Below, in pieces: positions 4,492 through 31,200 of a stretch of 38,987 nt of DNA; position 1 is the first letter of the stretch, and each line of letters starts with the position of its first letter. Below the pieces are notes generated by a model that was given only the letters and a program-made list of their open reading frames with translations, was not told where the DNA came from and did no database searches. The translations under genes and the position numbers were made by a program. The DNA comes from Blepharisma japonicum (taxonomy: Eukaryota > Ciliophora > Heterotrichea > Heterotrichida > Blepharismidae): NCBI GenBank assembly GCA_949751835.1, contig CATKHK010000161.1, forward strand, positions 1 to 38,987, given 5' to 3'.

Positions 4492-5295
4492 TTAATATTT
4501 AATAGGTAAATTAACAGCTATAATCTTCTTTTTCTCTAAGTCAAACTTCAAAATTAGTGAATCTTCAATTAAAAAATATCACGCTTTATTACAAAGTGCT
4601 TTACGTCCAGTTATTCCTCCTTCTGAGCCTGTGAAATTTCCTATAATACTCCAATTGAAAAGGCCATTTCTATCACTTTCAAGTATTTTCCCAGTAAAAT
4701 CAATTAAATAAGCTGAATTTTCAAAATTGCAAAGTAATTTCATTTGGCAGCCAAGCAAACACACAGAGCATGAAGAAAAGGACAAAACTAATAAATCTAA
4801 AGCAAATATATCTAGGCAATCATATCCTGTAGCCAAAATCATGCCATTCAAAAAAGTTGAAGAGCACCATCGAGTTCCGCTTGGAAATTTTAACAATTTT
4901 TCTCATTTCCACTTAATCAGATTAAATCTCTCTACAAAATCGTTTCCAAAAATATAAACGCAATCTTCATAGTAAGTTCCAAAACATCCAAGGCTTGGTG
5001 TCCCTTTCGGGAGAACTTGAATGTCATAATTCTCATTGATAATAAAAGTAATTCCACTCAAATCTGCCCATCCTATCGTGTTCCCATAGCAAAATAGCCT
5101 ATTGCCTGGCAATTGGCAAATGCAAATTCTTTCGTCAATATTAGTTTCTGGAAGCAGGAGTCTGTGAAGATGTTTTTCAAAAGTTTCAAGGTCAATTTCT
5201 ATTAGATCAGAGGAATCATCATAAAATCAGCTTATTTTGGATGTTTCGATTTCGCTTTCTTGATTGCACGGTAAAAGATTTTCCAAAATTTTCAT
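4492..5295 (-). CDS. Kelch-like beta-propeller protein, B type (267 aa)
   Basis: This ORF is intact with TGA as Trp, from the MKILENLLPCNQESEIETSK start at 5295 to TAA at 4492. Blades: ICQLPGNRLFCYGNTIGWAD (about residues 75-95), YYEDCVYIFGNDFVERFNLI followed by KWKWEKLLKFPSG, GMILATGYDCLDIFALDLL, AYLIDFTGKILESDRN, and AWYFLIEDSLILKFDLEKK. The NQESEI start, IDFTGK and LYNKAWYFL-type motifs define the B subfamily, whose other members are 5755-6555 (intact) and the broken copies at 8.3, 15, 17 and 20 kb. Its intact reading across the W-E-K-L segment is the reference that exposes the TA-bounded insertions in the broken copies. Confidence 0.87.
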
Positions 5296-5754
5296 TTTTT
5301 ATAAAGTAAATAGTTGCTGCTCAAATTTATAATAAATAGAAAAATTCTAGAGTGTCTATCAGCACATATTAAAAATTTGCTAAAGCCATATTAAATTTAG
5401 CAACTTTTAATTAATATTCTTATTAGTTAAATAAAATTACTGCTTTATGTTAAGGAAAAATTGCCCAGAACCATAATTAATTTTTCATTGTCAGTATGTG
5501 AGGCTATGAAGATGTTATTTTTTGTCAAAGGACAAATATAAAACATTTGAACATAATTATTTTAGCATTAGAAATAAATATATTATATCTTTTGATTATA
5601 AAATATTTTAAAAACGAACACTACATTTGCAAGACCTCTTGATAATGAGTATTAAGATGACACTGTTAATACAATTAGAATTTATTCTAGTAAATTTTTA
5701 TGTTTATATCAAAAATTTTTAGCTTTCGCTTATAACCTTTATGTAAAAACCTCT
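5296..5754. other. intergenic spacer between two B-type Kelch genes
   Basis: About 0.46 kb of AT-rich DNA upstream of one gene and downstream of the next. No promoter element or ORF is recognised. Confidence 0.4.
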
Positions 5755-6555
5755 TTAATATTTAGCAGGCAAATTAATATTTATGATCTTCTTTTTTTCT
5801 AAGTCAAATTTTATAATTTGCGAATCTCTAATTAAAAAATATCACGCTTTATTATAAAGAGTCTTGCGTTCAATGATTCTTTTCTCTAAACCTTCGAAAT
5901 TTCCTATAAAATTCCAATTAAAAGGGTTATTTTTATAGCTTTCAAAAATTTTCCCAGTGAAATCAATTAAGTAAGCTGAATCTTCAAAATTGCAAAGAAA
6001 TTTAGTTCGGTAGCAAAGAATAGAAATAGGGCATAAAGAAAAAGACAAAGTCAATAAATCTAGTGCAAATACTTCGTCTCAATCATATCCTGTAGCCAAA
6101 ATCATATGATTCAAATATGTTGAAGAGCACCTACAAGTGCTACTTGGAAATTGTATCAATATTTCTCACCTTAAACTAATTAGATTAAATCTCTCCACAA
6201 ATTCACCTCCAAAAACATAAACACTATCTTTATAATAAGTCCCAAAACATCCGAGCTTTGGTGATCCTTTAGGGAGAACTTGAATGTCATAATTTTCATT
6301 AATAATAAATGTAATTTCACTTACATCGTCTCATCCTATTGTGTTCCCATAACAAAATAGCTTATTGTCTGGCAATTGGCAAATGCAAATTCTTTCGTCA
6401 ATATTAACTTCAGGAAGAAGAAGTCTATGAAGGGTTTTCTCCAAAGTTTCAATATCAATCTCTTTTAGATCATAAAAACCATAAAATCAGCTAATTTTTG
6501 ACTTTTTAATTTCGCTTTCTTGATTGCATGGGAAAGGACTTTCTAAAATTTTCAT
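5755..6555 (-). CDS. Kelch-like beta-propeller protein, B type (266 aa)
   Basis: This ORF is intact with TGA as Trp, from MKILESPFPCNQESEIKK at 6555 to TAA at 5755. It is a close paralogue of 4492-5295. Blades: ICQLPDNKLFCYGNTIGWDD, YYKDSVYVFGGEFVERFNLI then SLRWEILIQFPSSTCRCSST, HMILATGYDWDEVFALDLL, AYLIDFTGKIFESYKN, and AWYFLIRDSQIIKFDLEKK. The segment RWEILIQFPSST is uninterrupted here. In the B copies at 8.3, 15, 17 and 20 kb a 132-139 bp element sits exactly between the Leu-Ile and Phe-Pro codons. This is the last intact B gene before the tandem duplications. Confidence 0.87.
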
Positions 6556-6627
6556 TCTCTATATAGTAAATAATTTATTTTTATGTCAATTTTATCATAT
6601 ATAGAAAATTTAAGTGATTTCATTCAA

Positions 6628-7053: not shown

Positions 7054-7881
7054 TTAAGGGGTATGAACTTCTTCTATTTCCTTTTTTTTAAAATCAAATT
7101 TATAGATTGTTGAATTTGTTAAAAAATACCAACAATCTTTATAAAACGTTCTTTGTCCAGGCGTCATTATAAGATCTTTTAAATTTCAGTTTACTATAAT
7201 ATTTCAATCAAAAGGACTATTGATCTCACTTTGAAATACTTTGCCAGAAAAATCGAATAAGTATGCACAATTTTTATAACTGCAAAGAAATTTATTTGAA
7301 TTGAGTTTAAATTTCATGCGGTATACAGAAATAGATAAGGTCAATAAGTCAAATACTAAAATATCATCGTATAAATTCCCTGAAGCTAATATCATGCCGC
7401 TCAAAGAAGTACAAGTACTTAGCTTAGAATAACCAGGATTTTTCGTTAATTTCTCTCATTTTCATTTAATAAGATTGAACCTCTCAATAATGTTTCTTCC
7501 AAAAATATAGACACAATTATCATAATAAATTGAGAGAAGTTCAATGCCTGGAGTTCCTCTGGGTAGAATGTTTACGTTATAATTTTCATCAACTATAAAA
7601 GTAAGACCAGTCAAAGAAAAACTAGAAAAGCTTTTCCGCATCATTAATGATGTTCAATTATCCTCACGATTTCCGTAACAAAAGAGTCTATTGCCTGGTA
7701 AAGAACACATTGATATATTTCTATCAATATTTTCAGGAATTAGAAGCATGTGAGCTGTTTTTTTCAATGTTTCAAGATTACATTCAATGAGATTACAAGA
7801 CCTATCCTTAAACCAAAAAAGTTTGTACGATTCAATTTCATTCTCTTGGCTGCCAGGCAATAAATTTTCTAAAATTTTCAT
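7054..7881 (-). CDS. Kelch-like beta-propeller protein, A type (275 aa)
   Basis: This ORF is intact with TGA as Trp, from MKILENLLPGSQENEIESYK at 7881 to TAA at 7054. Landmarks: CNLIECNLETLKKTAH, CSLPGNRLFCYGNREDNW (the Trp is TGA), LTGLTFIVDENYNV, LLSIYYDNCVYIFGRNIIER with FNLIKWKWEKLTKNPG, GMILASGNLYDDILVFDLL, AYLFDFSGKVFQSEINSPFD, and CWYFLTNSTIYKFDFKKK. This is the A-subfamily reference; the others are at 11.2, 13.6, 16.1 and 18.3 kb. The 5' flank (7882-8268) is also duplicated with each A gene, so promoter and coding region were copied together. Confidence 0.87.
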
Positions 7882-8268
7882 ATTTTGATGAGAGTTTTAT
7901 TATGCAAACTTTATTAACTAATAGTAGATTAAATTATAGTAGCTTTTGACGAGTTTAATTGTTGATTTATTAAAAATCAATCCTATACTTAAAATTTAAT
8001 AGCTTCTTTGATTTCTTACTCAAAAAATTGCTAAATTTCTGTCATGAATCTCAATTTAATTGCTGAAAATTCCATTAAATGGTCTCTTCTCAACTCTTGC
8101 CTTACCTCTCATTATGTTTTGACACGAATGAATAATAATTAACGAATAATTAATCACCCCCATTTATATTTAAATAATTTAAATTTAGGTTATTAGAATC
8201 CGAAATTAATATAAAAAATTCTTTTAAAAACTTTAACATTCGCTTAAATATTTCAAGTCAAAACCTCT
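7882..8268. repeat. A-type 5' flank repeat, copy 1
   Basis: It carries ATGAGAGTTTTATTATGCAA, GACGAGTTTAATTGTTGATT and TTGCTAAATTTCTGTCATGA, all repeated upstream of the A genes at 12045, 14346, 16886 and 19176. It presumably contains the promoter; no specific box is identifiable. This copy and copy 2 carry an extra CATTATGTTTTGACACGAAT segment missing from the others. Confidence 0.7.
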
Positions 8269-8880
8269 TTAAGATGTAATAGGCAAATTAATATTTATAA
8301 TCTTCTTTTTCTCTAAATCAAATTTCAGAATTTTTAAACTCCAGTTAAAAAATATCATGCTTTATTATAAAGAGCCTTTCGTTCATTAATCCTTACTACT
8401 TCTGAACTATTAAAATTTCCTATAATATTTAAATTAAAAGGGTCATTTTTATCGCTTTCGAAAATTTTCCCAGTAAATTCAATTAAATAAGCTGAATCTT
8501 CAAAATTGCATAGTAATTTTGTTTGGTAGCAAAGAATAGAAACGGAGCATAAAGAAAAGGACAAAGTCAATAAATCTAAAGCAAATACTTCGTCTCAATC
8601 ATATCCTGTAACCAAAATCATATAATTCAAATATGTTGAAGAGCAACAGCCAGTGCTACTTGGAAACTCTATAGTCTATTTTTATTTTTGTATTTAGTTT
8701 TTTACTTCTAAATATTATTGCATATTCAAGTATAGTTTTTTGACTTCTCCACATCTAAACAAATTAAAAAATGCCAATTAATATCTATTTAAATCTCTAT
8801 AAGCTATATCAATTTTTTCCATCTTCACTTAACTAGATCAAATCTTTCCACAATACTACCTCCAAAAATATAAACACTAA
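8269..8880 (-). pseudogene. B-type Kelch pseudogene, 5'-truncated, with inserted element
   Basis: Only the C-terminal two thirds of a B unit are present. Read on the minus strand, it starts at YIFGGSIVERFDLVKWRWKKLI and is interrupted at once by the 137 bp element at 8670-8806. It continues as EFPSSTGCCSSTYLN, then TLSFSLCSVSILCYQTK, AYLIEFTGKIFESDKN and KAWYFLTGV, then breaks. Relative to the copy at 14.8 kb one base is lost near 8335, giving TAA before the last blade. Homology ends abruptly near 8879, so the N-terminal half was lost in a rearrangement. Even if the insertion were removed the copy would not encode a full propeller. Confidence 0.75.
8670..8806. mobile_element. candidate IES-like element 1, copy at 8.7 kb (137 bp)
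   Basis: It begins TATAGTCTATTTTTATTTTT and ends CTCTATAAGCTA, followed by a second TA. Both ends read TATAG inwards (TATAGT and, on the other strand, TATAGC), a short terminal inverted repeat at a TA. Cutting TA-to-TA joins GGAAACTC to TATCAATTTT, which on the minus strand reads Lys-Leu-Ile-Glu-Phe-Pro, as in intact B genes. It starts with neither GT nor CT on the relevant strand, so it is not a canonical intron. Confidence 0.7.
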
Positions 8881-9807
8881 GAACTAAGAGAATAGGTATG
8901 ATAGCAACAATACAAAATTTAATGAGTAGAATTTAAAATATTTATTTTATCAAATAATTGGTTAATTGATTCAGGGTCAACTTTTTTAAAAAGTTATTAT
9001 GATCTATTTTCCCCACCCCTCATTTTTGAGGTTTAAAAAAGTGCATTATTTTTCAGCTTCACCCATCGGAGACTGAGTGGAAAAAAATAAATAGACTTCT
9101 ATGGCGGAAAACCTTCGGCTCAGCAATTATTTAGCATGCAATTTTTATGATATAGTGAATTTATAGCTCAAGCTTTAGACTAGATGATAAATAATGGCTT
9201 AAATATAAAGACCCAGACTCGCTTATGAAAATCATAAGATTTGTGTCAATTATAGGGTGCTCAGGATCTTTAAAAATCAATGAAGTCCCAAAGCTTAATG
9301 GTTGATCCTAATACAGGAAATATCACGATTTATGACTCAATTATTTATTCACATGGAGTGCTAATATTATAGCTATCGTTAAGCCAGTTTTGTATGCTGT
9401 AATACAGCTGTGAAGCCATCTGATAAAGGTATTTATAGAAAATTGTTCATTCCCTTGTGAAATGGGAGAATTTTAATGAAATATTTAATTATTGTAAATT
9501 TATGGAGAAAAATTAATTAATTGGATAACTGGATTGGGATAGTATTTGTCCTTTGTTTTTATTTTGTTTTAAACAATAATTGTTACTTTTAGTATATGGA
9601 AAAAATGATGGCATATAAAATTTAAATGCTGACTATAAAAAAAAAATTTCTTATGAGCATTTTATTGTGGGAATTTCACTTTAATAATGCATTAATAATG
9701 ATTTATAAAAATTCCTAATATACATTAAATTTTATTTGTTAAAATCTCTTTTCTAATATGGATTTTATTTAATTGAAAATTATGTTCAAAAATCCAAATT
9801 TTTTAAT
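8881..9807. other. non-array segment with weak coding traces
   Basis: Unique sequence separating two blocks of the array. A short plus-strand ORF containing LMVDPNTGNITIYDSIIYSH (about 9269-9357) and a second stretch, AIVKPVLYAVIQLW (about 9378-9419), look coding-like but are isolated and stop-bounded. I recognise no family. The 9010-9060 stretch is richer in C and G than its surroundings, with a small CTCATTTTTGAGG hairpin. Confidence 0.35.
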
Positions 9808-10647
9808 ATGAAAACCAAGCTTAATCAAAAATATTACGATAGTGGAAATTCTTGTAAACTTGAGTATTTGTACACATTAGACCCATTTCTCTATAATGAA
9901 ATGACAGTATATTCACTTTTAAACTTCTCACAGAAAAACTTCAAAATAAATTTTCCATATCAAATTGATAAAAATATTTGTATGTGCCCACTTCCAGATA
10001 ACAAAGTATTTTGCTATGGAAATAATTGAATAAAAAACTCTAATTACAGTCAATTTATTTCTGGAGTAACTTTTATTATAAATCAAGATTTAAGTATTGA
10101 GATCTTGAATGAAGGATATCCAAGCTTTGGATCTGGAGGTATATTTTATGCTGGATATGTCTATGTTTTTGGAGGATTTGATGCAAAAAAGAAAATTAAC
10201 AGACTTGCAGCAAAATTTTCTTTAATGGAGAATCGATGGCAATTAAATCCAAATTTACCATTCCCTGCATGTTTTTGCTCATATATAGAATACATGAGAT
10301 TCATTTTAGTAGGAGGTGCTAGTCGTTCTCAAACTATATTAACTTTTGATATAGCAGGAAATTCTTATTCAGAAATTTTATTTGGCCTGAAAAAAACTAA
10401 AATTTTGTGTAAGTATAATGGGTATGCTTATTTGATAAATCCAGAAGGGAATATTTATGAAAGTGGATACAATAACCCTTTTATTTGAAAATTCATAGAG
10501 AAATGTGGAATTAATCAAAAATTTGATCAATTAGCCAGTTTTCAAATGGTTTTTGAAAGTATTCTTTTTTTTATTGAATATAAGTTTTCGTTTTTCAACT
10601 ATTATAGATTTGATTTAGTGAGAAAGGCGTTTAAAATAATAGATTAG
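9808..10647 (+). CDS. divergent Kelch-repeat protein on the plus strand (279 aa)
   Basis: This ORF is intact with TGA as Trp at 10027-10029 and 10486-10488, ending TAG 10645-10647. It lacks the MKILEN start and is the most divergent full-length member, but keeps the order of landmarks: MCPLPDNKVFCYGNNWIKNS, ISGVTFIINQDLSIEIL, a canonical Kelch blade AGYVYVFGGFDAKKKINRLA with ENRW, RFILVGGASRSQTILTFDI, AYLINPEGNIYESGYNNPF, and YYRFDLVRKAFK. The double-Gly FGG and VGG motifs and the spaced Trp are closer to textbook Kelch repeats than in its neighbours. It is the only complete plus-strand copy and interrupts the minus-strand array, suggesting an inversion or an older separate lineage. Function is unknown. 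Confidence 0.85.
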
Positions 10648-10874
10648 TAATAAATTACTAAAAATAAAAGATAATTCTTGCTTAATGCAAATTTTTATAA
10701 TTACTTTTATAAATATTTTGAATTATTTATAAGAAATCTTATAATTATTCCTTTTATTTAAAAATTAGCATAAAATCTTTCCATGATGGAATTATATTGT
10801 AAAATAATTTACAATGAAAACATGCTAGCTTAAAAATTACAAAATTTTCACTTATTGGCTTTTAGCACAAAAAT
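10648..10874. other. spacer after the plus-strand Kelch gene
   Basis: Very AT-rich; no ORF or repeat recognised before the array spacer resumes near 10875. Confidence 0.4.
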
Positions 10875-11216
10875 CATAATAAATTATTATCATTCCATCA
10901 AAAATGCAAATAAAGATTTCATTCAGCCTATCATAAAATGAGCTTGAAATTATTATCCTGCATAGAAAATGTTAAATTATCTATTTGAAATATAACGATG
11001 ATGTAACAACTTATAAAGAAAATATAATCATTCAAGACTAAACATTTGAAATTAAAAATTTGGCATTAATTTTTAAAATTTAACAATAAAATTAATTTTT
11101 AAATCAATATAATGTCGTGAACCCATTTAATAGCTTTGATTCTATTAATTAAAAAGCTCAATTATTTTAAATCACTTATTTTCTAAAGCAACACATTAGT
11201 CAAAAAAGCCTTTATG
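10875..11216. repeat. spacer repeat of the tandem array, copy 2
   Basis: Starts near AATAAATTATTATCATTCCA. It lacks the TA-bounded segment 3: the sequence goes directly from TTATTTTCTA to AAGCAACACATTAG at about 11184. It is therefore the empty-site reference for that element. Confidence 0.7.
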
Positions 11217-12044
11217 CTAGAGGGAATGAATTTCTTCTATTTCCTTTTTTTTAAAATCAAATTTAACGGTTTCTAGATGGTATGATAAAAAATATCAACA
11301 ATCTTTATAAAACGTTCTATATCAAGGCACTATTTTAAAATGTTTTCAATTTCAGTTTCCTATAATATTTCAATTAAAAGGACTATTGATCTCACTTTGA
11401 AATGTTCCTCCATAACCAAATAAGTATGCACAATTTTCATAACTGCAAAGCACTTTAATTGAATTATTTTTAAGATTCATGCAGCATACAGAAAAAGATA
11501 AGGTCAATAAATCAAATACTAAAATATCATCGTATGTTCACCCTGAAGCTAATATCATGCCGCTCAGAGAAGTACAAGTTGTTAGCTTAGACAAACCAGG
11601 ATTTTTCGTTAATTTCTCTCATTTTCCTTTAATTAGATTGAATCTCTCAAAAATGTCTACTCCAAAAAAATAGGCACAATGGTCATAATAAATTGAGAGA
11701 TCTCCAGTGCTTTGAGTTTCTCTGGATAGAAATTTTACATGAAAATTTTCATCAACTATAAAAGCAAGACCAGTCAAAGAATAACTAGAAACAAAGCCTT
11801 TTAGTGGCTCTAATAATAATGAAGTATCAATTAGCTTTCCGTTGCAAAAGAGTCTATTGCCTGGTAAAGAGCACGTTGATATAAGTTTTTTAATATAATA
11901 AGGAATTCGAAGATTGTGAGATGTTTTTTCCAATGTTTCAATATTCCATTCAATGATATTACAATACCCACCAATCACAAAAAGTTTGTACGATTCAATT
12001 TCATTCTCTTGGCTGTCTGGCAATAGATTTTCTAAAATTTTCAT
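11217..12044 (-). CDS. Kelch-like beta-propeller protein, A type (275 aa)
   Basis: This ORF is intact with TGA as Trp, from MKILENLLPDSQENEIESYK at 12044 to TAG at 11217. It has diverged from the other A copies in the first blade (CSLPGNRLFCNGKLIDTSLL), in the second (YYDHCAYFFGVDIFERFNLI) and in the strand after AYLF, where GYGGTFQSE replaces DFSGKVFQSE. The last blade reads CWYFLSYHLETVKFDFKKK. It shares HLE and CCMNLK features with the copy at 18315-19175, so these two are sister copies although not adjacent. That implies duplication of blocks larger than one unit. Confidence 0.86.
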
Positions 12045-12360
12045 ATTTTGATGAGAGTTTTATTATGCAAACTTTATTAACTAATAGCAGATTAAATTAT
12101 AGTGGCTTTTGATGAGTTTAATTGTTGATTTATTAATCATCAATCCTAAAAACGAAATGATTAAATTACTTACTCTACGTACTTAAGGTTTAATAGCTTC
12201 TTTAATTTTTTACTCAAAAATTTGCTAAATTTCTGTCATAAATCTCAATTTAATTGCTGAAAATTCATTAAATGGTCTCTCCTCAACTCTTGCCTTACCT
12301 CTCATTATGTTTTGACACGAATGAATAATAATTAACGAATAATTAATCAGCCCATTTATA
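12045..12360. repeat. A-type 5' flank repeat, copy 2
   Basis: Matches 7882-8160 closely, including the CATTATGTTTTGACACGAAT segment, then stops at CCCATTTATA. It is joined there directly to the middle of a B-type C-terminus (TAGTAATTTTGTTTGG). Compared with copy 1, about 0.35 kb is missing between two TA dinucleotides. Confidence 0.65.
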
Positions 12361-12918
12361 TAGTAATTTTGTTTGGTAGCAAAGAATAGAAACGGAGCAT
12401 AAAGAAAAAGACAAAGTCAATAAATCTAAAGCAAATACTTCGTCTCAATCATATCCTGTAACTAAAATCATATGATTCAAATATGTTGAAGAGCACCAAC
12501 CAGTGCTGCTTGGAGATTCTATAGTCTATTTATTATAGTAAACATTAATTAATCAAACCTCTCTATTTGTCCATCTCCACAAACATAGATATAGTTGTTA
12601 AAATAAGTTGCAGAACACTCAATATATGTAGTTTCTGAAGGAAGAATTCAGGGTTTATACTTCTCATCAATTATAAAAAGATTGTCACCCATGCCTTTTC
12701 AATTATTGCTACCACAACAAAAAAGTTATTATCTGGTAGAAGACATGCGCACGTTATATAACTAAATTTCTTCCCAGGAATGGATATTTCGAGATGATTT
12801 TCGTTTTAAGATTCAAGATTAAAGCATAGAGATCACAAAATATGCCTGCAAACCACATTAGTTTGAATGTTTCGATTTCATTGTCCTTGATATCTGGTAG
12901 ATTTTCCAAAATTTTCAT
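12361..12918 (-). pseudogene. chimeric Kelch pseudogene (C-type start, B-type end)
   Basis: From 12918 the minus strand reads MKILENLPDIKDNEIETFKL, like the intact gene at 26425-27210. It is frameshifted after about 35 codons (ALILNLKTKI, then TAA), with later landmarks (DNNFFVVVA, ATYFNNYIYVCGDGQIERFD) in changing frames. After RFD the sequence switches, through a short piece matching the left end of element 1 (TATAGTCTATTTATTATAG), to a B-type segment PSSTGWCSSTYLNHMILVTG. That segment is cut off inside the codons for CYQTKLL. It is thus a fusion of two subfamilies, both halves incomplete. It is a recombination product and cannot be a functional gene. Confidence 0.75.
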
Positions 12919-13059
12919 TATTAATTAAATAAATTATTTAAATGTTGGCTCGAAAGAATCAGGCTAATAAGAATATGAGTGGTTCTATTTATTATCTTTT
13001 CAGGGTTTAAATATTTTAACATGCAAAAAGGTTTTAACATTGTAGTTAGTCTCCTATGA
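12919..13059. other. spacer upstream of the chimeric pseudogene
   Basis: AT-rich; resembles no other block in the window that I can identify. Confidence 0.35.
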
Positions 13060-13297
13060 ATAATAAATTATTATCATTCCATCAAAAAAGCAAATAAAGA
13101 TTTCATTCAACCTATCATAAAATGAGCTTGAAATTATTATCCTGTATTGAAAATATTTAAATTATCTATTTGATCAAATATTTTTTAAATTGCAAGGAAA
13201 TAATGTCATAAAAACTTATAAAGAAAATGTAATCATTCAAGACCAAACATTTGAAATTATGAATTTGGCATTAATTCTTTAGATCAATATAATATCA

Positions 13298-13362
13298 TAA
13301 ACTCATTGAAATTTTTGATTCTAATTATTAAAAAGCAAAATTATTTTAAATCACTTATTTTC
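13298..13362. mobile_element. candidate TA-bounded 65 bp segment
   Basis: Present here, in AATATCATAAACTC through TTATTTTC. In copy 4 the flanks are joined as AATATTATAAGAGTTTGAG with one TA left. Whether it is an insertion or a deletion cannot be told. At this size and in DNA so rich in TA the boundaries could be coincidence. Confidence 0.3.
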
Positions 13363-13484
13363 TAAGAGTTTGAGAGTAGACGGAGAAATCTTAAAAAACA
13401 AAAGAAGAAATAAAATAATAAAATGGAGGACTTTTTATAACTAAAATTAATGAAATAATAAATAGATTAAGGACTTACTTGAAC
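13363..13484. mobile_element. candidate TA-bounded IES-like element 3, copy at 13.4 kb
   Basis: 122 bp, TAAGAGTTTGAGAGTAGACG to CTTGAAC then TA, homologous to 6906-7020 and missing from the spacer at 11.18 kb. Confidence 0.45.
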
Positions 13485-13583
13485 TAAAGCAACACATTAG
13501 TAAAAAAAGCGTTTATGTTAAGGGGTATGAACTTCTTCTATTTCCTTTTTTTTAAAATCAAATTTATAGATTGTTGAATATGT

Positions 13584-14345
13584 TTAAAAATACCAACAAT
13601 CTTTATAAAACGTTCTATGTCCAGGCGTCATTATAAGACATTTGAAATTTCAGTTTACTATAATATTTCAATCAAAAGGATTATTGATCTCACTTTGAAA
13701 TACTATGCCAGAAAAATCGAATAAGTATGCACAATTTTTATAACTGCAAAGAAATTTATTTGAAGTGAGTTTAAATTTCATGCGGCATTCAGAAAAAGAT
13801 AAGGTCAATAAATCAAATACTAAAATACAATCGTATGAATGCCCTGAAGCTAATATCATGCCGCTCAAAGAAGTACAAATACTTAGCTTAGAATAACTAG
13901 GATTTTGCATTAATTTCTCTCATTTTCCTTTAATAAGATTGAATCTCTCAATAATGTCTCCTCCAAAAATATAGACACAATTATCATAATAAATTGAGAG
14001 AAGCTCAATGCCTGGAGTTCCTCTGGGTAGAATTTTTACGTTATAATTTTCATCAACTATAAAAGTAAGACCAGTCAAAGAAAAACGAGAAAGCCTTTTC
14101 CGTATCATTAATGATAATGAATTATGCTCACGATTTCCGTAACAAAAGAGTCTATTGCCTGGTAAAGAACACATTGATATATTTCTATCAATATTTTCAG
14201 GAAGTGGAAGCATGTGAGCTGTTTTTTTCAATGTTTCAAGATTACATTCAATGAGATCATAAGACCCATCATAAAACCAAAAAAGTTTGTACGATTCAAT
14301 TTCATATTCTTGGCTGCGTGGCAATAAATTCTCTAAAATTTTCAT
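13584..14345 (-). CDS. Kelch-like protein, A type, prematurely stopped (253 aa)
   Basis: It opens at MKILENLLPRSQEYEIESYK (14345) and reads through all but the last blade. At 13584-13586 the codon that is TTA in sister copies is TAA, directly after CWYF, so the product loses about 22 residues including the final YKFDFKKK strand. The lost tail is still readable down to the ancestral TAA at 13518, so the change is recent. Other landmarks are intact: CSLPGNRLFCYGNREHNS, YYDNCVYIFGGDIIERFNLI, GMILASGHSYDCILVFDLL and AYLFDFSGIVFQSEINNPFD. A propeller lacking its closing strand may not fold, so this may be a young pseudogene. Confidence 0.75.
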
Positions 14346-14719
14346 ATTTTGTTGAGAGTATTATTATACAAACTTTATTAACTAATAGCAGATTAAATTA
14401 TATTGGCTTTTGACGAGTTTAATTGTTGATTTATTAAACATCAATCCTAAAAACGAAATGATTAAATTACTTATTCCACATACTTAAGGTTTAATAGCTT
14501 CTTTGATTTCTTGCTCAAAAATTTGCTAAATTTCTGTCATGAATCTCAATTTATTTGTTGAAAATCCATTAAATAGTCTCTCCTCAACTCTTGCCTTAGA
14601 TTTTTATATTTAAATAATTTAAATTTAGATTTGTAGAATCCGAAATTAATATAAAAAATTCTTTTAGTTTATATTTAAAAACCTTATCATTCGCTTAAAT
14701 ATTTCAAGTCAAAACCTCT
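14346..14719. repeat. A-type 5' flank repeat, copy 3
   Basis: Same block as 7882-8268 but without the CATTATGTTTTGACACGAAT segment: CTCTTGCCTTAG joins directly to ATTTTTATATTTAAATAATT. Confidence 0.7.
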
Positions 14720-15121
14720 TTAAGATGTAGCAGGCAAATTAATATTTATAATCTTCTTTTTCTCTAAATCAAATTTCAGAATTTGTAAAACTCCAGTTAA
14801 AAAATATCATGCTTTATTATAAAGAGCCTTTCGTTCACTAATCCTTACTCCTTCTGAATTATTAAAATTTCCTATAATATTCTAATTAAAAGGGTTATTT
14901 TTATAACTTTCAAAAATTTTCCCAGTAAATTCAATTAAATAAGCTGAATCTTCAAAATTGCATAGTAATTTTGTTCGGTAGCAAAGAATAGAAACGGAGC
15001 ATAAAGAAAAAGACAAAGTCAATAAATCTAAAGCAAATACTTCGTCTCAATCATATCCTGTAACTAAAATCATATGATTCAAATATGTTGAAGAGCAACA
15101 GCCAGTGCTACTTGGAAACTA

Positions 15122-15253
15122 TATAGTCTATTTTTTATTTTTGTATTTAGTTTTTTTACTATTAAATATTATTGCATATTCAATTATAGTTTCTTCCACA
15201 TCTAAACAAATTAAAAAATGCCAGTCATTATCTGTTTAAATCTCTATAAGCTA
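15122..15253. mobile_element. candidate IES-like element 1, copy at 15.1 kb (132 bp)
   Basis: Starts TATAGTCTATTTTTTATTTT, ends CTCTATAAGCTA before TATCAA. Slightly shorter than the other copies because of internal losses around TATAGTTTCTTCC. Same TA and same codon as in the other three B copies. Confidence 0.7.
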
Positions 15254-15276
15254 TATCAATTTTTCCCATCTTCACT

Positions 15277-15346
15277 TACCTTTATATTATAAATTATATT
15301 TCTTATTTAATTGTTTTTTAAATGAATAATAACTACAAAAAACGTA
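15277..15346. mobile_element. candidate IES-like element 2, copy at 15.3 kb (70 bp)
   Basis: TACCTTTATATTATAAATTA to ACAAAAAACGTA, then TA. The empty site CTTCACTTAACTAGAT is seen in the homologous positions at 8.83 and 17.77 kb. Taking out 70 bp TA-to-TA restores the codons Leu-Val-Lys-Trp-Arg-Trp. Confidence 0.65.
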
Positions 15347-15696
15347 TAACTAGATCGCATCTTTCCACAATACTACCTCCAAAAATATAAACACTATCTT
15401 TATAATAAGTTCCAAAACATCCAAGCCTACGTTTCCCTTTAGGGAGAATTTGAATATCATATTTTTATTGATAATAAAATTAATACCTCTTTTATCTCCA
15501 TATCATATTATATTCCTATAGCAAAATAGTTTATTGCCTGGCAATTGACAAATGCAAATTCTTTCGTCCCGAGTTTCAGGAAACAATCTATGAAGGGTTT
15601 CCTCCAAAGTCTCAATGTCAATTTCTATTAGATCTAAGGAGTCATCATAAAATCAACTAATTTTGGATGTTTTGATTTCGCTTTCTTGATTGCATC

Positions 15697-16060
15697 AAAA
15701 AACAAATAAAGATTTCATTCAGCCTGTCATAAAATAGGATTGAAATTATTATCCTGTATTGAAAATATTTAAATTATCTCTATTTGATCAAGTATTTTTA
15801 AATTGCAAGGAAATAATGTCATAAAAACTTATAAAGAAATATAATTATTCAAGAGCAAAACATTTGAAATTAAAAATTTGCCATTAATTCTTTATATCAA
15901 TATAATATTATAAGAGTTTGAGAGTAGACGGAGAAATCTTAAAAAAAAGAAGAAATAAAATAATAAAATGGATAGCTTTTTATAAATAAAATTAATGAAA
16001 TAATAAATAGATTAAGGACTTACTTGAATTAAAGACAAGTTAGTCAAAAAAGCGTTTATG
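15697..16060. repeat. spacer repeat of the tandem array, copy 4
   Basis: Begins directly at the truncated 5' end of the preceding B pseudogene (TTGCATCAAAAAACAAATAA), marking a duplication junction. It lacks the 65 bp segment of copy 3 but keeps element 3 at 15911-16029. Confidence 0.7.
15911..16029. mobile_element. candidate TA-bounded IES-like element 3, copy at 15.9 kb
   Basis: 119 bp, same ends as the copies at 6.9 and 13.4 kb; the right flank is TTAAAGACAAGTTAG. Confidence 0.4.
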
Positions 16061-16885
16061 TTAAAGGGTATGAATTTCTTCTATTTCCTTTTTTTTAAAA
16101 TCAAATTGATAGATTGTTGAAAATGCTAAAAAATACCAACAATCTTTATAAAATGTTCTATGTCCAGGCGTCATTTTAAGATTTTTTAAATTTCAGCTTA
16201 CTATAATATTTCAATCAAAAGGATTATTGATCTCGCTTTGAAATACTTGGCCAGAACCGAATAAGTATGCACAATTTTCATAACTGCAAAGAAATTTATT
16301 TGAATTGAATTTAAATTTCATGAAGTACACAGAAAAAGATAAGGTTAATAAATCAAATACTAAAATACCATCATATGAATATCCTGAAGCTAATATCATG
16401 TCGCTCAAAGAAGTACAAGTACTTAGCTTAGGATAACCAGGATTTTTCCTTAATTTCTCTCATTTTCCTTTAATAAGATTGAATCTCTCAATAATGCTTC
16501 CTCCAATAATATAGACACAATTATCATAATAAATTGAGAGAAGTTCAATGCCTGGAGTTCCTCTGGGTAGAAGTGCTACATGATAATTTTCATCAACTAT
16601 AAAAGTAATGCCAGTCAAAGAAGACCTAGAAAATCCTTGCATTAGTATTAATGATATTGAATTATGCTCACAGTTTCCGTAGCAAAAGAGTCTATTGCCC
16701 GGTAAAGAACACATTGATATATTTCTATCAATATTTTCAGGAAGTGAAAGCTTGTGAGCTGTTTTGTTCAATGTCTCAAGATTACATTCAATTAGATCAC
16801 AAGACCTATCAACAAATCAAAAAAGTTTGTACAATTCAATTTCATTCTCTTGGCTGCCTGGCAATAAATTTTCTAAAATTTTCAT
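16061..16885 (-). CDS. Kelch-like beta-propeller protein, A type (274 aa)
   Basis: This ORF is intact with TGA as Trp, from MKILENLLPGSQENEIELYK at 16885 to TAA at 16061. Landmarks: LFWFVDRSCDLIECNLETLN, CSLPGNRLFCYGNCEHNS, LTGITFIVDENYHVALL, YYDNCVYIIGGSIIERFNLI, DMILASGYSYDGILVFDLL, AYLFGSGQVFQSEINNPFD and CWYFLAFSTIYQFDFKKK. A small in-frame deletion has turned the usual AYLFDFSGKVFQ into AYLFGSGQVFQ without breaking the frame. This suggests that coding capacity has been kept under selection while the neighbouring B copies decayed. Confidence 0.86.
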
Positions 16886-17224
16886 ATTTTGATGAGAGTT
16901 TTATTATTAAAACTGTATTAACTAATAGCAGATTAAATTATAGTGGCTTTTGAGAGTTTAATTGCTGATTTATTAAACATCAATCCTAAAAATGAAATGA
17001 TTAAATTACTTATTCCACATACTTAAGGTTTAATAGCTGCTTTGATTTCTTACTCAAAAATTTGCTAAATTTCTGTCATGAATCTCAATTTAAAAGTATA
17101 AATTAGATTTTTATATTTAAATAATTTAAATTTAGACTATTAAAACCAAAATTAATATTAAAATTCTTTTAGTTTATATTTAAAAGCTTTAGCATTCGTT
17201 TAAATATTTTAAATCAAAACCTCT
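16886..17224. repeat. A-type 5' flank repeat, copy 4
   Basis: Same block as at 14346-14719, with a shortened middle (TCTCAATTTAAAAGTATAAA replaces the CTCTTGCC region). Confidence 0.65.
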
Positions 17225-17890
17225 TTAAGATGTAACAGGCAAATTAATATTTATGATTTGTGTTTTCTCTAAGTCAAATTTCAGAATTTGTGAATCTCCA
17301 GTTAAAAAATATCATGCTTTATTATAAAGAGCCTTTCGTTCACTAATCCTTACTCCTTCTAAACTATTAAAATTTCCTATAATATTCCAATAAAAGGATT
17401 ATTTTTATCACTTTCAAAAATTTTCCCAGTAAATTCAATTAAATAAGCTGAATCTTCAAAATTGCATAGTAATTTTCGGTAGCAAAGAATAGAAACGGAG
17501 CATAAAGAAAAGGACAAAGTGAATAAATCCAAAGCAAATACTTTGTCATATCCTGTAACTAAAATCATATGATTCAAATATGTTGAAGAGCAACAGTGCT
17601 ACTTGGAAACTCTATAGTCTATTTTTTATTTTTGTATTTAGTTTTTTTACTACTAAATATTATTGCATATTCAAGTAGTTTTTTTGACTTCTCCACATCT
17701 AAACAAATTAATAAATGCCAGTTATTATCTGTTTAAATCTCTATAAGCTATATCAATTTTTCCCATCTTCACTTAACTAGATAAAATCTTTCTACAATGC
17801 TACCTCCAAAAATATAAATACTATCTTTATAATAAGTTCCAAAACATCCAAGCCTACGTTTCCCTTTAGGGAGAATTTGAATATCATAAT
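17225..17890 (-). pseudogene. B-type Kelch pseudogene, 5'-truncated, with inserted element
   Basis: Begins at YDIQILPKGKRRLGCFGTYY, cut at about 17890 by the spacer repeat, and runs to TAA 17225. Element 1 lies at 17613-17750; the element 2 site is empty. Two further lesions are a 4-base deletion in the SSTGCCSSTYLN segment (about 17593, shared with the 20 kb copy) and a 1-base loss in NPFNWNIIG (about 17391), giving NPFIGIL then TAG. The shared 4-base deletion shows this copy and the 20 kb copy descend from one already broken ancestor. Confidence 0.75.
17613..17750. mobile_element. candidate IES-like element 1, copy at 17.6 kb (138 bp)
   Basis: CTC|TATAGTCTATTTTTTATT at the left, ATAAGCTA|TATCAATTTT at the right. 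The join CTC+TATCAA restores Lys-Leu-Ile-Glu-Phe on the minus strand at this point, although the copy is broken elsewhere. Confidence 0.7.
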
Positions 17891-18314
17891 AAATTATTAT
17901 GATTCCATCAAAAATACAAATAAAGATTTCATTCAACCTATCATAAAATGAGCTTGAAATTATTATCCTGCATTGAAAATGTTTAAATTATCTATTTGAA
18001 ATATAACAATGACATAAAAACTTATAAAGAAATATAATCATTCAAGATCAAACATTTGGAATTAAAAAAATTTGGCATTAATTCTTTAAAATTTAACAAT
18101 AGAAATTAATTTTTTAAATCAATATAATGTCGTGAACTAATTTAATAACTTTGATTCTATTAATTAAAAAGCTTATTTATTTTAAATCACTTATTTTCTA
18201 AGAGTTTGAGAGTAGATGGAGAAATCTAAAAAAATAAAGAAAAAATAAAATTATAAAATAGATTACTTTTTGTGACTAAAATCAATTAATAAATAGATTA
18301 AGGACTTACTTGAA
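17887..18314. repeat. spacer repeat of the tandem array, copy 5
   Basis: Starts AATAAATTATTATGATTCCA immediately at the truncated B pseudogene. Contains a homologue of element 3 from about 18200 (CTAAGAGTTTGAGAGTAGAT) to about 18314 (CTTGAACTAAAG). Confidence 0.7.
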
Positions 18315-19175
18315 CTAAAGCACCACATTAGTCAAAAAGCCTTTATGTTGAAGGGGATTAACTACTTCTATTTCCTTTTTTTTAAAATCAAATTTAACGA
18401 TTTCTAGATGATATGTTAAAAAATATCAACAATCTTTATAAAACGTTCTATGTCCACGTGTTATTACAACATCGTTTAAATTTCAGTTTCCTATAGTATT
18501 TCAATTAAAAGGACTATTGATCTCGCTTTGAAATACTTTGCCAGAAAAATCGAATAAGTATGCACAATTTTCATAACTACAAAGCAATTTAATTGAATTG
18601 CATTTAAGATTCATGCAGCATACAGAAAAAGATAAGGCCAATAAGTCAAATACTAAAATATCATCGTATGTTCACCCTGAAGCTAATATCATGCCGCTCA
18701 AAGAAGTACAAGTACTTAGATTAGAAGAACCAGGAAATTTCGATAATTTCTCTCATTTTCCTTTAATTAGATTGAATCTCTCAGTAATGTCTCCTCCAAA
18801 AATATAGACACAATTGTCATAATAAATTGAGTGAATATTAGTGCTTTGAGTTGATTCGGATAGAAATTTTACATGATAATTTTCATCAACTATAAAAGTA
18901 ATACCAGCCAAAGAACAACCAGAGCAGCCTTTCTGTAGCCTTAATAATAGTGAATTATCCTCACATTTTCCGATGCAAAAGAGTTTATTGCCTGGCAAAA
19001 GACACGTTGATATAATTCTATAAAAATATTCAGGAAGTGGAAGCATGCGAGTTGTTTTTTTCAATGTTTCAAGATTATATTCAATGAGATCACAATTCGA
19101 ATCAAACAAAGAAATTTTGGATAATTCAATTTCATTCTCTTGGCTACCTGGCAATAGATTTTCTAAAATTTTCAT
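18315..19175 (-). CDS. Kelch-like beta-propeller protein, A type with extended C-terminus (286 aa)
   Basis: This ORF is intact with TGA as Trp, from MKILENLLPGSQENEIELSK at 19175. The ancestral stop after the last blade is lost: where sister copies end HTP or HSL, this one reads NPLQHKGFLTNVVL and stops at TAG 18315. The product is thus about ten residues longer, encoded by former spacer DNA. Landmarks: CLLPGNKLFCIGKCEDNS, AGITFIVDENYHVKFL, YYDNCVYIFGGDITERFNLI, GMILASGWTYDDILVFDLL, AYLFDFSGKVFQSEINSPFN and CWYFLTYHLEIVKFDFKKK. It is closest to the copy at 11217-12044. Confidence 0.85.
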
Positions 19176-19536
19176 ATTTTGATGAGAGTTTTATTATGCA
19201 AACTTTATTAACTAATAGCAGATTAAATTATAGTGGCTTTGACGAGTTTAATTGTTGATTTATTAAACATCAATCCTAAAAACGAAATGGTTAAATTACT
19301 TACTCCACATACTTAAGGTTTAATAGCTTCTTTGATTTTTTACTCAAAAATTTGCTAAATTTCTGTCATGAATCTCAATTTAATTGCTGAAAATCCATTA
19401 AATGGCCTCAACTCTTAGATTTGTATATTTAAATAATTTAAATTTAGATTATTAGAATCCAAAATTAATATTAAAAATTCTTTTAGTTATATTTAAAAGC
19501 TTTAGCACTCCTTAAATATTTTAAGTCAAAACCTCT
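19176..19536. repeat. A-type 5' flank repeat, copy 5
   Basis: Same block as the other A flanks; shortened around AAATGGCCTCAACTCTTAGA. Confidence 0.65.
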
Positions 19537-19934
19537 TTAAGTTGTATAAGGCAAATTAATATTTAAGATCTGTTTTTTCTCTAAGTCAAATTTCAGAATT
19601 CGTGAACCTCCAATTAAAAAATATCATGCTTTATTATAAAGAACCTTTCGTTCACTAATCCTTTCTCCTTCTGAATTATTAAAATTTCCTATAAGATTCC
19701 AATTAAAAGGGTTACTTTTATCACTTTCAAAAATTTTCCCAGTTAATTCAATTAAATAAGCTGAATCTTCAAAATTGCATAGTAATTTTGTTCGGTAGGG
19801 AAGAACAGAAACGGAGCATAAAGAAAAGGACAAAGTGAATAAATCTAAAGCAAATACTTTATCTCAATCATATCCAGTAACTAAAATCATATGATTCAAA
19901 TATGTTGAAGAGCAACAGTGCTACTTGGAAACTC

Positions 19935-20073
19935 TATAGTCTATTTTTTATTTTTGTATTTAGTTTTTTTACTACTAAATATTATTGCATATTCAAGTAT
20001 AGGTTTTTGACTTCTCCACATCTAAACAAATTAAAAAATGCCAGTTATTATCTGTTTAAATCTCTATAAGCTA
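19935..20073. mobile_element. candidate IES-like element 1, copy at 20.0 kb (139 bp)
   Basis: TATAGTCTATTTTTTATTTT to CTCTATAAGCTA, then TATCAA. Same insertion TA as the other copies; longest version. Confidence 0.7.
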
Positions 20074-20096
20074 TATCAATTTTTCCCATCTTCACT

Positions 20097-20166
20097 TATT
20101 TTATATTATAAATTATATTTCTTATTTAATTGTTTTGTAAATAAATAATAACTAATACTAAAAGTA
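20097..20166. mobile_element. candidate IES-like element 2, copy at 20.1 kb (70 bp)
   Basis: TATTTTATATTATAAATTAT to AATACTAAAAGTA, then TA. Same length and site as the 15.3 kb copy but diverged inside. The join gives CTTCACTTAACTAGATC, as at the empty sites. Confidence 0.65.
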
Positions 20167-20542
20167 TAACTAGATCGATTCTTTCCACAATACTACCTCC
20201 AAAAATATAAACACTATCTTTATAATAAGTTCCAAAACATCTAAACCTACGTTTCCCTTTAGGGAGAATTTGAATATCATAATTTGCATTGATAATAAAA
20301 TGAGTACCGCTTTCAAGATCTGATCATCTTACATTCCTATAGCAAAATAATTTATTGCCTGGCAATTGATAAATGCAAATTCTTTCGTCCCAAGTTAAGG
20401 AAAACAATTTATGTTCGGTTTCCTCCAAAGTTTCAATGTTAATTTCTATAAGATCTGAGGAGTCGTCATAAAATCAACTAATTTTGGACGTTTTGATTTC
20501 GCTTTCTTGATTGCATGGTAAAGGATTTTCCAAAATTTTCAT

Positions 20543-27210: not shown

Positions 27211-28239
27211 TTTTAATCACATATTATGATTTTAAGGATATAGATGTTCTTGAGGCTATTGATATGCCAAATAAAGATAAGCAGGGGAGTTTATTTTACT
27301 TATGGCCCTTCTATAATACACAAAATTTGATAATACAAAAAATATTCGCATTCAAGCTAATTCACTAAATAAAAGAAAAACCATTAACGGGTAACTACAA
27401 TTACTTTAGTGCTCAGAAACTCTCAATATACTGGTTTTAAGATATATCTGTTTAAGACATTAAATTTTCTTATATATAAACATTATTAAGCTACCAGATA
27501 ATCTTAAAAATAGTCAAACAATGCCAAAACAATAAAAGCTTTATCGTTCGCAAAGGTGAAGGAATAGAAGACCTGGCAAAGAAGTTACAGTTTATTATGA
27601 GGCTGGATTGAACAATAAATAAAACAATTCCATATATGTTAAAGTGATGGAATTTTAACTGGAAAATCAAATTCTGTTTATACTTTTGCATTAATCCATA
27701 ATGCATATGATTTTCTCTTGAAATTATCAAGTTAATATTTTATATTTTTCAAGATATTCCAGTATTAAAGAAGGAAATTAATTAAAGAGTTTTGCATTTG
27801 CCTGATAAACCTGTGAAAAATAAAGAGAAATCATTGTTTTACGATTTATATCATATGTCTGCAGGAATTAAATGTGTTTTGGAAATTAAAAGAGGATCCT
27901 AGTAGGATTCTGAGCTAAAAGAAGGCGAAAAGCTAATGATTTCTTATAGGGTTGCTACCGATGTGTCTAGCAGCCATTATAATCTTAAGATTTAAAAAAT
28001 ATAAGCAATTGTATCTTTGAGTATTAGATCCCGCTTATTACTCAGGTTTCTTTTCTCGCACTTAAAAAATTGTCTGCTTTTTCCTCAAATCCAATTTTTT
28101 TATTATATTTCTAAAAGCACTGGAATTTATTTTCTAAATCTCTAAATTCTACCCATCTCCCTTTCCTAATTAATTCTCGCCAAATAAAAAAAACTCCAGT
28201 AACAGCTTGCGTTATTCTAATTAATCCAACTTAATATTT
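27211..28239 (+). other. spacer with coding-like relics upstream of the channel gene
   Basis: Two plus-strand stretches look like remnants of a protein gene. The first, about 27478-27680, is open with TGA as Trp and contains NKSFIVRKGEGIEDLAKKLQ, a pattern reminiscent of short 'VRxGD..E.LA..F' segments found in cytoskeletal and ciliary proteins. The second, about 27786-27995, reads VLHLPDKPVKNKEKSLFYDL, then two consecutive TAG codons, then ISYRVATDVSSSHYNLKI. The family is not identified and the decay is clear. The last 250 bases before the channel ATG are plain AT-rich leader. Confidence 0.35.
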
Positions 28240-31200
28240 ATGGACAAAGATATCAACTCAACCCGTTTTTTACACTACGGTTCCCTCATAAACCTCAAAA
28301 CTCTTGACAACTACTACATCTACTCTCAAGGCTTTATCGAAACCACGCCTTTTCTGCAGCCTTTTACAGAAATTGAATCAAATTTCATCGGAGCAGTTTT
28401 TCGCATAATTCCACAGTGTCAGTATTCTACCCAAAAAGAAATTCTGCGATATATTTCAGACGCAAATGGAATTGCACAAGCAGAAAAGCTGGAAAGGCTT
28501 GAAGACAGCTTGGACGGGGAAATTAAGACAAATACCCACACTTATAACACTTTTAAAGGAGAAGCTATTAAATATGGGTCTTTAGTTCAGCTGGAACACA
28601 TTCATTCCCATCGGTTCTTGGCATTGCAAAGCAAGACGTCAGCAGAATCTGAGAAGGAAAATTTTAGGCTGACTTTAGAAGATTTTGGCAGCGAGTATTC
28701 ACATTTCAGAATTGAGCCTAGCTATAAGTATCAGAAAGAAGGCAGCGGGCTGGTAAGGCTTAAAGATAAAGTATTGTTTGAGCTTTTGGTACCAGAACTG
28801 AACCGTTCAGCCTACTTGCATGCAAGCAAAGGCCCTTTGATAATACCTCCAATGAGTAGGCTGTCAATTGATTTTTCTGTATCTCAGCTTGGAGTCCAAG
28901 AAGTCAATGCCTCCTTAGACCAAAAGACTAAATGGGCCATTGACTTATACGCCCCAGTTGAAAAAAAAGGCTCACATTTACTTGCATGTGGGAATTATGT
29001 GTGACTTTCAAGGACAGAAGAAGGTGTCTGCTTATCAATATTCCAGAAAGAAGAAATCAATCCTAAAGTAATTTACAGTGACAATTTAAATGATACTAAC
29101 GGCCTTTGAATGATAGAAGGAGAAGATTTGCATGTGGGAGGACTTGTGATGATTGGAAATAAGTATAGACTGAAGCATATGTCTACTGGAAAATATTTAG
29201 TATTAAAAACAATCACCAAGACTGTAGGCGAAATTAATCATAAAGTTAAGCTGAAGCCAATTACCCATCCGAATTCCTTGTGAATGTTTATTCCGCTTGA
29301 AAATAAAAGCGGGGTTTATTTTTTGAATTCAGAACAACACTGTAAAATAGTCAATGTAGCAATTAGTGGAGCAACTATTACAGGAAAAGTTTTAACGGCA
29401 AATAATGATACCTCGTTTTCACCTGTGGTTGAATTTTTTTCAGATGATTTGACTTATTTTAAAGTTTCAAGGGCAAATGGAGAAGTTGCTTGGGAAACTT
29501 TATTTTTATTAAACTGCAAGCCAATATTACAAAGTTTCCCTGAATTTATGGCAAAAAACGCAGATGTGCTTACCAGGGGCCCAAAAGCAATGAGGGAATA
29601 TGAAAAGTATTTGAAATTAATTGAAAAATGCTTAGATGATCTTGAGCTGTTTTGCAAAAACAAGCTAAAGAGCATGGTTGGGCTGGATAATCAATATGGC
29701 CAGGTACAAAGTGCAAGACAAAGGATTCTCCGCGAGCAGCGATTTTTTGAAGATTTAACAGAAATTTTAAAAAATGTTTTTATTTCCTATGAAGAAATAG
29801 AACACGTAAAAATGATAAACACAGCAGAAAAATCCTATGGGGAAGAAGTTGCAGAAGCTAAAAATGATTTTAAATCAATTGAAATGATAAAAATAACCCT
29901 ACAGAAATCTATCACTGAAAAAACTTATTCTGTGATTTCTGCTATTTGTCACAAAAATATAGAAAATCAAATATATGCCTGCGAGTTTTTTAAAGTTTTT
30001 GTAAAACACGTCGGACTGAATCTAGGAGCTACAAAATGTATGCATGAAATAGTAAGAGATAATGAAAAGATATTATTAGAGCTTCATGATAATTTTACGA
30101 CTTCTGAGTCAAAAAATCTTATCCAGCATTTTGCGTGGCTATTAAAGCAGAATTATAGAGACAAAAAGCCAGAAATTTTGGAATTTTTAAAAACTATATG
30201 TGTACACAAAGGAGACGGGGTCACAGTTAACCAAGAAAAAGTTTTCGAAAGCATTTTTACGCACCCTAAAATATACAAAAAAGTACTAATCCCAGTTTCC
30301 GAATGCGAAGGAAACCTTTATATTTCTCTAGGAGATACCAGAAGTGATGTGATTCCTTTAGACAGCTGCTTTAAAGAAGGGAGAATTGTTAATCATTCAG
30401 CAGAAATAGTGTATTTTACCAAACTTTTAGAGCTTTTTGGCTGCTTGTGTATTGGCAGAAATTTTCTATGCACAGAGTCTTTAAAAGATCATTTTTCGTC
30501 AGAAGTCTTGCAGAATATGATATGGAATATTGATATCAGCAAAAAAGTTAGGGCAGCTTTCTGTAGGCTTGTTTTGACAATCCATATTGACGCTTTCCCA
30601 AGAGAAGAAATTAAACGACCTGAGCTGATTAAAGTCCTGAGATTAAGAGGGAGGCATGCGTGGGATGATAAGGCAGATACCCGGTTTTCTGAAGAAAACA
30701 TTGAATTTGTACAAAGTATTGAGCCAATCACAGATCAAGAGAAAAAAAGTATTTTTGACAAGGTAAAAAAGCCGAGAAATTTTTTCCAAAGGTTTTCATC
30801 AAGCTCTATTTCTCCGCTGACTGAAGAAAGCACCAATAAAATAAAAGATGAAGATAGGTGGATTCATGTTTTGAGCATGAATTTATTGAAATTTTTCAAT
30901 TATCAGTATTTGAGACCTCAATATGATGTGCTTACATTAGAAATGCTGAAGCTTAGTGACAAAATGTTCAGGTTTGATATTTATGGAGCAGTCTGTACAA
31001 ATTTAGAGAACGGGACTATTCTTAGTGACCCTGAAAATCCTTATTTTGACGAGAAAAAGATGGATATAATTAAGTTCCTGTCATCTATAAATCACATTTA
31101 TTTTTACAATGCCCAGAGCAGCTCAAACACCAAAAGCAAATCCCTTTCTAAAAGAAAGTCAAAATTAGTTACAGACAATCAGAAGAAAAAACTTACCAAA

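Follow-up and report, generated by a model that had tools for sequence, protein, structure and literature searches.

Four copies of a kelch-like gene in a tandem array on one contig of the ciliate Blepharisma japonicum (C161; CATKHK010000161.1 of assembly GCA_949751835.1) are interrupted by a TA-bounded block of 132-139 bp, here termed insert 1, and two of them also carry a TA-bounded block of 70 bp, insert 2. The window that we analysed is this entire contig, 38,987 bases in length, in an assembly of 45.19 Mb and 224 contigs. It is probable, albeit with considerable room for doubt, that insert 1 descends from one TA-targeted insertion of the class of internal eliminated sequences (IESs) or miniature inverted-repeat transposable elements (MITEs), which has escaped excision, either from the outset or at a later time, put a kelch-like gene out of action and was multiplied together with it in tandem. 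The sequence itself shows where the copies of insert 1 lie, their TA boundaries and ends, the homology of the four copies, the further lesions of the hosts, the even spread over codon positions, and the presence of the insert in this assembly, where the searches gave no further copy; we infer that a transposase with TA as its target was responsible, that the contig comes from the soma, that excision never took place or has ceased, and that the gene died through retention of the insert. As such, the inserts are good candidates for retained IESs, rather than proof of them.

A TA-bounded insert in four kelch-like pseudogenes

Insert 1 occurs at the following places, the strand given for inserts being that of the host gene:

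8670..8806, minus strand: insert 1 in copy a, 137 bp, TA-to-TA
15122..15253, minus strand: insert 1 in copy b, 132 bp; TAG is the junction codon after in-silico removal
17613..17750, minus strand: insert 1 in copy c, 138 bp
19935..20073, minus strand: insert 1 in copy d, 139 bp
12520..12536, minus strand: remnant of insert 1 in truncated copy e (12360-12536), about 17 bp of one end, the first 12 exact

The first-pass annotation had placed an element of 132-139 bp at 8670, 15122, 17613 and 19935, and all four copies were found there; to its four Kelch copies are added the remnant in the truncated fifth copy and the presence of insert 2 in copies b and d. Insert 1 is flanked by the repeat TAT in copies a, c and d and by CTATAT in copy b, and a flanking repeat containing TA arose in 4.1% of 200,000 simulated random insertions in the window. 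The termini read TATAGYYTAT (left ends TATAGTCTAT; right ends, read inwards, TATAGCTTAT), both starting with TATAG as annotated, and the inverted ends agree at 8/10 positions, a match that random TA pairs from the window reach in 1.3% of cases. When the insert is cut out in silico from TA to TA, copies a-d align with the uninterrupted paralogues p1 and p2 without a gap in 4/4 cases, and a sense codon is formed in 3/4; the junction codon is TAG in copy b, which carries the substitution that the annotation had described, and GAG in the other copies. The annotation's match to the paralogues therefore holds for the alignment and not for the residues, which are not identical (p1 and p2 read Leu-Leu-Lys-Phe-Pro and Leu-Ile-Gln-Phe-Pro). 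Stop codons in the frame of the gene lie inside insert 1 in all four copies. The GC content of the insert is 20-22%, against 29-30% in the flank, and the insert varies about as much as its flank, with 12/129 and 41/399 variable columns, respectively (p = 0.87; ungapped columns, two-state changes).

The host genes are disabled beyond the insert

The hosts of insert 1 and their two uninterrupted paralogues, with reading frames translated with TGA as tryptophan, are:

8255..8880, minus strand: kelch-like pseudogene a, truncated at the 5' end, one 1-nt deletion
14705..15700, minus strand: kelch-like pseudogene b, start region replaced, with a 1-nt deletion and two TAG codons
17210..17890, minus strand: kelch-like pseudogene c, truncated at the 5' end, one deletion of 4 nt and one of 1 nt
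19525..20540, minus strand: kelch-like pseudogene d, start codon kept, with a 4-nt deletion in common with c
4495..5298, minus strand: uninterrupted paralogue p1, 268 codons from stop to stop (TGA=W); ATG to stop 4492-5295
5758..6558, minus strand: uninterrupted paralogue p2, 267 codons from stop to stop (TGA=W); open frame cited as 5755-6555

In a protein tree, copies a-d group with p2, their nearest paralogue. Within the region kept by all four, insert 1 is the sole disabling change common to a-d, and beyond it every copy carries one or more lesions, of which some occur in two copies. Copies a-d are thus pseudogenes even apart from insert 1, and since all four genes are broken elsewhere, the TA cut does not restore a working gene. 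The paralogues p1 and p2 and three proteins of Blepharisma stoltei (P0001-P0003) read through the site and are free of the insert. The copies of insert 1 share their flanks, and for this reason trace to one insertion; its carriage in a gene amplification, as first proposed, is upheld by the tandem array of homologous copies, the last four units of which lie about 2.3 to 2.5 kb apart as judged from frame positions.

Variable columns among a-d are distributed over codon positions 1/2/3 as 35/34/32, a count that included the non-homologous ends of the truncated copies; after trimming, the distribution becomes 30/26/28 (p = 0.87 for an even spread), or 17/15/18 in the columns that every copy covers. 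Differences between p1 and p2 fall 38/42/71, and on the a-d stem the fixed changes number 10/12/21. The contrast between a-d and p1-p2 at codon position 3 is suggestive, not strong.

The course of events that we propose would begin with a single IES- or MITE-class insert, with TA as its target, a TA duplication and short inverted ends, entering one kelch-like gene after the split from the p2 lineage and at a time when this gene was presumably under constraint. Insert 1 would not have been removed in somatic development, or its removal would have ceased, such that it stayed in the somatic genome, and the retained insert would have disabled its host gene. The dead gene may then have been carried in the tandem amplification next to intact kelch-like genes, with the insert and its flanks decaying together. 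Two of the four copies also bear the 70-bp insert 2, likewise bounded by TA.

Five tandem kelch-like genes adjoin the pseudogenes on the minus strand (7057-7881, 11217-12044, 13500-14345, 16040-16885 and 18315-19175), all of them open and of 253-286 codons. Their variation is greater at codon positions 1 and 2 than at 3 (87/80/58), and the ratio of nonsynonymous to synonymous substitution rates (dN/dS) is above 1 in 8/10 pairs; diversifying selection on these genes is possible. Two proteins of this neighbouring array match Kelch profiles below the curated cut-offs, p1 and p2 match none, and one relative in B. stoltei has "kelch motif family protein" as its name in the source record, which leaves the kelch name for these genes weak. 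At E <= 0.001, p1 has just three matching proteins, each of them from B. stoltei, and the many kelch-like copies here may therefore be a lineage-specific expansion.

A second insert in two of the four copies

Insert 2 was missed by the first-pass annotation. It lies 23 bp from insert 1, towards the N-terminal side, in two copies:

15277..15346, minus strand: insert 2, 70 bp, in copy b, between exact TA repeats
20097..20166, minus strand: insert 2, 70 bp, in copy d, between exact TA repeats

Copies a and c are cleanly without it at the corresponding TA. Its GC content is 8-13%, against 29-30% in the flank, and a DNA search of the assembly placed it at these two sites. The protein tree pairs (a,b) and (c,d), whereas insert 2 sits in b and d. 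If it was gained once, it must therefore either have vanished twice without trace, as excision would bring about, or have passed between copies by exchange. On the C-terminal side of the hosts, c groups with d by 7 columns and a common 4-bp deletion, with one conflicting column, while one derived base adjoining insert 2 is common to b and d, which favours sequence exchange between copies. Precise excision of insert 2 from a and c is not claimed, because the derived base of b and d fits recombination, although c and d group together downstream. It is improbable that two IESs are handled differently among tandem copies of one macronuclear chromosome, with insert 2 excised tracelessly from a and c but left in place in b and d, and with none of the four losing insert 1. 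If this were true, the array would be a natural panel for local sequence changes that switch excision off.

Other blocks also differ between units of the array. A third, intergenic block of 115-122 bp (6905-7019, 13362-13483, 15908-16026 and 18198-18314) is bordered by CTAA repeats in three of its four units; the fourth unit holds it without intact CTAA repeats, and it is cleanly absent from a fifth unit at 11183, where a microhomology deletion would be an equally likely cause. In a survey of pairwise gaps, a TA-containing repeat was found in 9/60 rows of at least 15 bp, and in 7/10 rows when gaps of at least 60 bp with aligned blocks of at least 10 bases on both sides were taken. Insert 2 and the third block, taken as one event each, may account for the seven TA rows, and two further events for the remaining three; the rows are not independent, and no claim is built on them.

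The contig looks somatic

The longest frame on the contig bears on the nucleus from which it derives:

28225..36195, plus strand: IP3-receptor-like frame, 7971 nt, uninterrupted under TGA=W, with IP3-receptor domain matches

With approximately 40,000 IESs per 41 Mb, the rate in B. stoltei, the probability of an IES-free stretch of 7971 bp would be 4e-4. Because this frame is uninterrupted, the contig is taken as somatic; it looks somatic, judged by its open frames, and insert 1 would therefore be retained in somatic DNA. A TA-bound IES is recognised by its absence from the somatic genome; insert 1 is assembled in 4/4 copies beside the 7971-nt open gene, on a contig whose somatic status we infer.

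The unit CCCTAACA, which is the telomere unit of B. stoltei (PMC9942806), forms arrays in this assembly, with four consecutive units matched 62 times in forward and 79 times in reverse orientation, among which the matches listed include the ends of contigs C5 and C6. The ends of the present contig (1-492 and 38496-38987) are a telomere-free inverted repeat of 492 bp, 96% complementary, which resembles kelch-like stretches within the contig. The best matches of the GCN5-like protein of the window and of p1 are both from B. stoltei, at 94% and 75% identity, respectively, which puts the present genome close to B. stoltei but apart from it.

Genome-wide searches and excision machinery

A DNA search of the 45-Mb assembly found insert 1 at its four array places only. 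The exact pattern TATAGYYTAT N105-135 ATARRCTATA likewise matched nothing in the 45 Mb beyond the four copies (control 0), the search being confined to exact ends, this one length range and the assembled, somatic-looking sequence. The genome-wide family with the same ends that the first-pass annotation had suggested looking for thus did not appear in this assembly. The DNA searches for the inserts skip simple repeats and the pattern search covers one length range, so that neither is exhaustive, and since IESs are by definition missing from somatic DNA, a germline family of insert 1 may exist. With the same treatment of simple repeats, no source sequence for insert 1 or insert 2 was found in the assembly. 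Copy c with its flanks, used as a query, found no near-identical empty locus in the assembly, the matches on other contigs being of 75-86% over 52-104 bases.

The best match to PF13843 in the genome is a PiggyBac homologue (L008, C6:283422-284489, minus strand) in which three aspartates, presumably the catalytic ones, align with those of piggyBat (9c0f). Excision machinery is therefore likely to be present in this Blepharisma, to judge from this predicted protein.

Weighing the explanations

Retention of a single TA-targeted insert draws its weight from the finding that both inserts have a TA-containing flanking repeat, each with a 4.1% chance, and that the ends of insert 1 have one of 1.3%. 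It is further supported by insert 1 being the sole disabling change common to a-d, by the even codon-position spread, by the like variation of insert and flank, by the uninterrupted 7971-nt frame and the telomere-unit arrays of the assembly, and by the insert-free paralogues and B. stoltei proteins. Several observations weigh against it. Insert 1 has short inverted ends, and in insert 2 no more than 4/10 (b) or 5/10 (d) of the inverted end positions agree. The inserts are lower in GC than their flank, whereas the IESs of B. stoltei match somatic GC, and 132-139 bp is outside the IES length peaks given for that species (PMC9942856). The assembly gives one form per locus, behind which partial excision could be hidden, and the contig has no telomere of its own, its somatic status resting on open frames. 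The contrast between a-d and p1-p2 at codon position 3 is p = 0.019 untrimmed and p = 0.053 trimmed, and dN/dS ranges from 0.34 to 1.03 over the six pairs of a-d, with 0.33 for p1-p2; because of the trimmed value and this range, weak constraint on a-d may still be at work.

A working IES, which the germline carries and most macronuclear copies lose at TA, with the assembly showing retained copies through partial retention or germline admixture, is a doubtful explanation, if one of some substance. The TA-bound IESs of B. stoltei (PMC9942856) and the PiggyBac homologue in this genome would accord with it, and the clean presence of insert 2 in b and d against its clean absence in a and c has the look of different excision outcomes. 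However, the hosts carry other lesions, and there is therefore no obvious reason for excision to have been maintained; nothing interrupts the 7971-nt frame elsewhere on the contig, the search of the assembly turned up no excised version of the locus, and the derived base beside insert 2 in b and d fits ordinary recombination between copies. The initial description of the block as an IES, or a relic of one, is borne out by the TA geometry, the inverted ends, the PiggyBac homologue and a genus with TA-bound IESs, and a relic or never-excised insert fits better; that the block is excised as an IES would be found no support, as it is present in a somatic-looking assembly, its hosts are pseudogenes and no excised locus was found. 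It is unlikely that a copying error or end-joining insertion simply fell between TA dinucleotides in DNA of 74% AT. Flanking repeats of just 2-3 bp (6 in copy b), short inverted ends, the lack of any dispersed family among the searches made, and a tandem array rich in other indels that are mostly TA-free (51/60 pairwise gaps of at least 15 bp) would all be expected of such an accident, but 2/2 inserts are TA-bounded (0.041 each), the ends of insert 1 agree at 8/10 positions (0.013), and the searches of the assembly, which skip simple repeats, gave no source sequence for either insert. Very improbable is an explanation in which the ancestral gene already had the 137 bp and the paralogues lost them, for which nothing speaks but the symmetry of any comparison of presence and absence; p1, p2 and the B. 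stoltei proteins P0001-P0003 are all insert-free at the site, and the insert has in-frame stop codons in all four copies. A spliceosomal intron is hardly conceivable: insert 1 is within coding sequence and missing from the paralogues, yet GT-AG is found at none of the equivalent cuts, and the introns of B. stoltei are predominantly of 15 and 16 bp (PMC9942806). The intron and ancestral-sequence explanations were rejected on these grounds.

Comparison with known systems

Insert 1 resembles MITEs and MITIES such as BogoMITE (PMC9942856) in being short and non-coding with inverted ends and a target-site duplication. It differs in having four copies only, a TA rather than TAA/TTA target, and imperfect ends of 10 bp; MITEs are recognised by dispersed copies with the same inverted ends, and the exact end pattern of insert 1, in the one length range covered, was found across the 45 Mb in the array alone.

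B. stoltei has approximately 40,000 IESs, of which three quarters are TA-bound, with a median length of 255 bp, no single end motif and GC as in somatic DNA (PMC9942856). In common with its TA-bound IESs, the inserts described here have a TA/TAT flanking repeat, are intragenic, give an uninterrupted alignment after a TA cut, fall within the published length range and have heterogeneous inverted ends. Unlike them, they lie in somatic-looking DNA, are hosted by pseudogenes and are AT-richer than their flank. Insert 1, at 132-139 bp, is off the published length peaks, while insert 2, at 70 bp, is near the 72-bp peak (PMC9942856). The ends had also been likened to the Paramecium consensus TAYAGYNR (PMC3464196), and TATAGTCT and TATAGCTT each match it at 7/8 positions, the last being T, not R. 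This comparison says little either way, because both ends miss the last position and the IESs of B. stoltei share no single end motif.

In Paramecium, 6 recruitments of IESs into exon sequence and 17 precise losses were recorded among 64 groups of four paralogues (PMC3464196), and because of these records retained IESs are an already known kind. The exon-recruited IESs are alike in that an IES-like, TA-bounded block has turned into ordinary somatic sequence, and unlike in that they belong to another genus and that three sister genes there carry the IES, whereas here no sister gene is known to excise. Should excision prove to vary between sister copies, the array could serve to test which features render an IES excisable. 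Dead genes with TA-bounded inserts still in place would illustrate the fate of a germline insert that is not cut, in which the gene is killed and the insert becomes ordinary somatic DNA.

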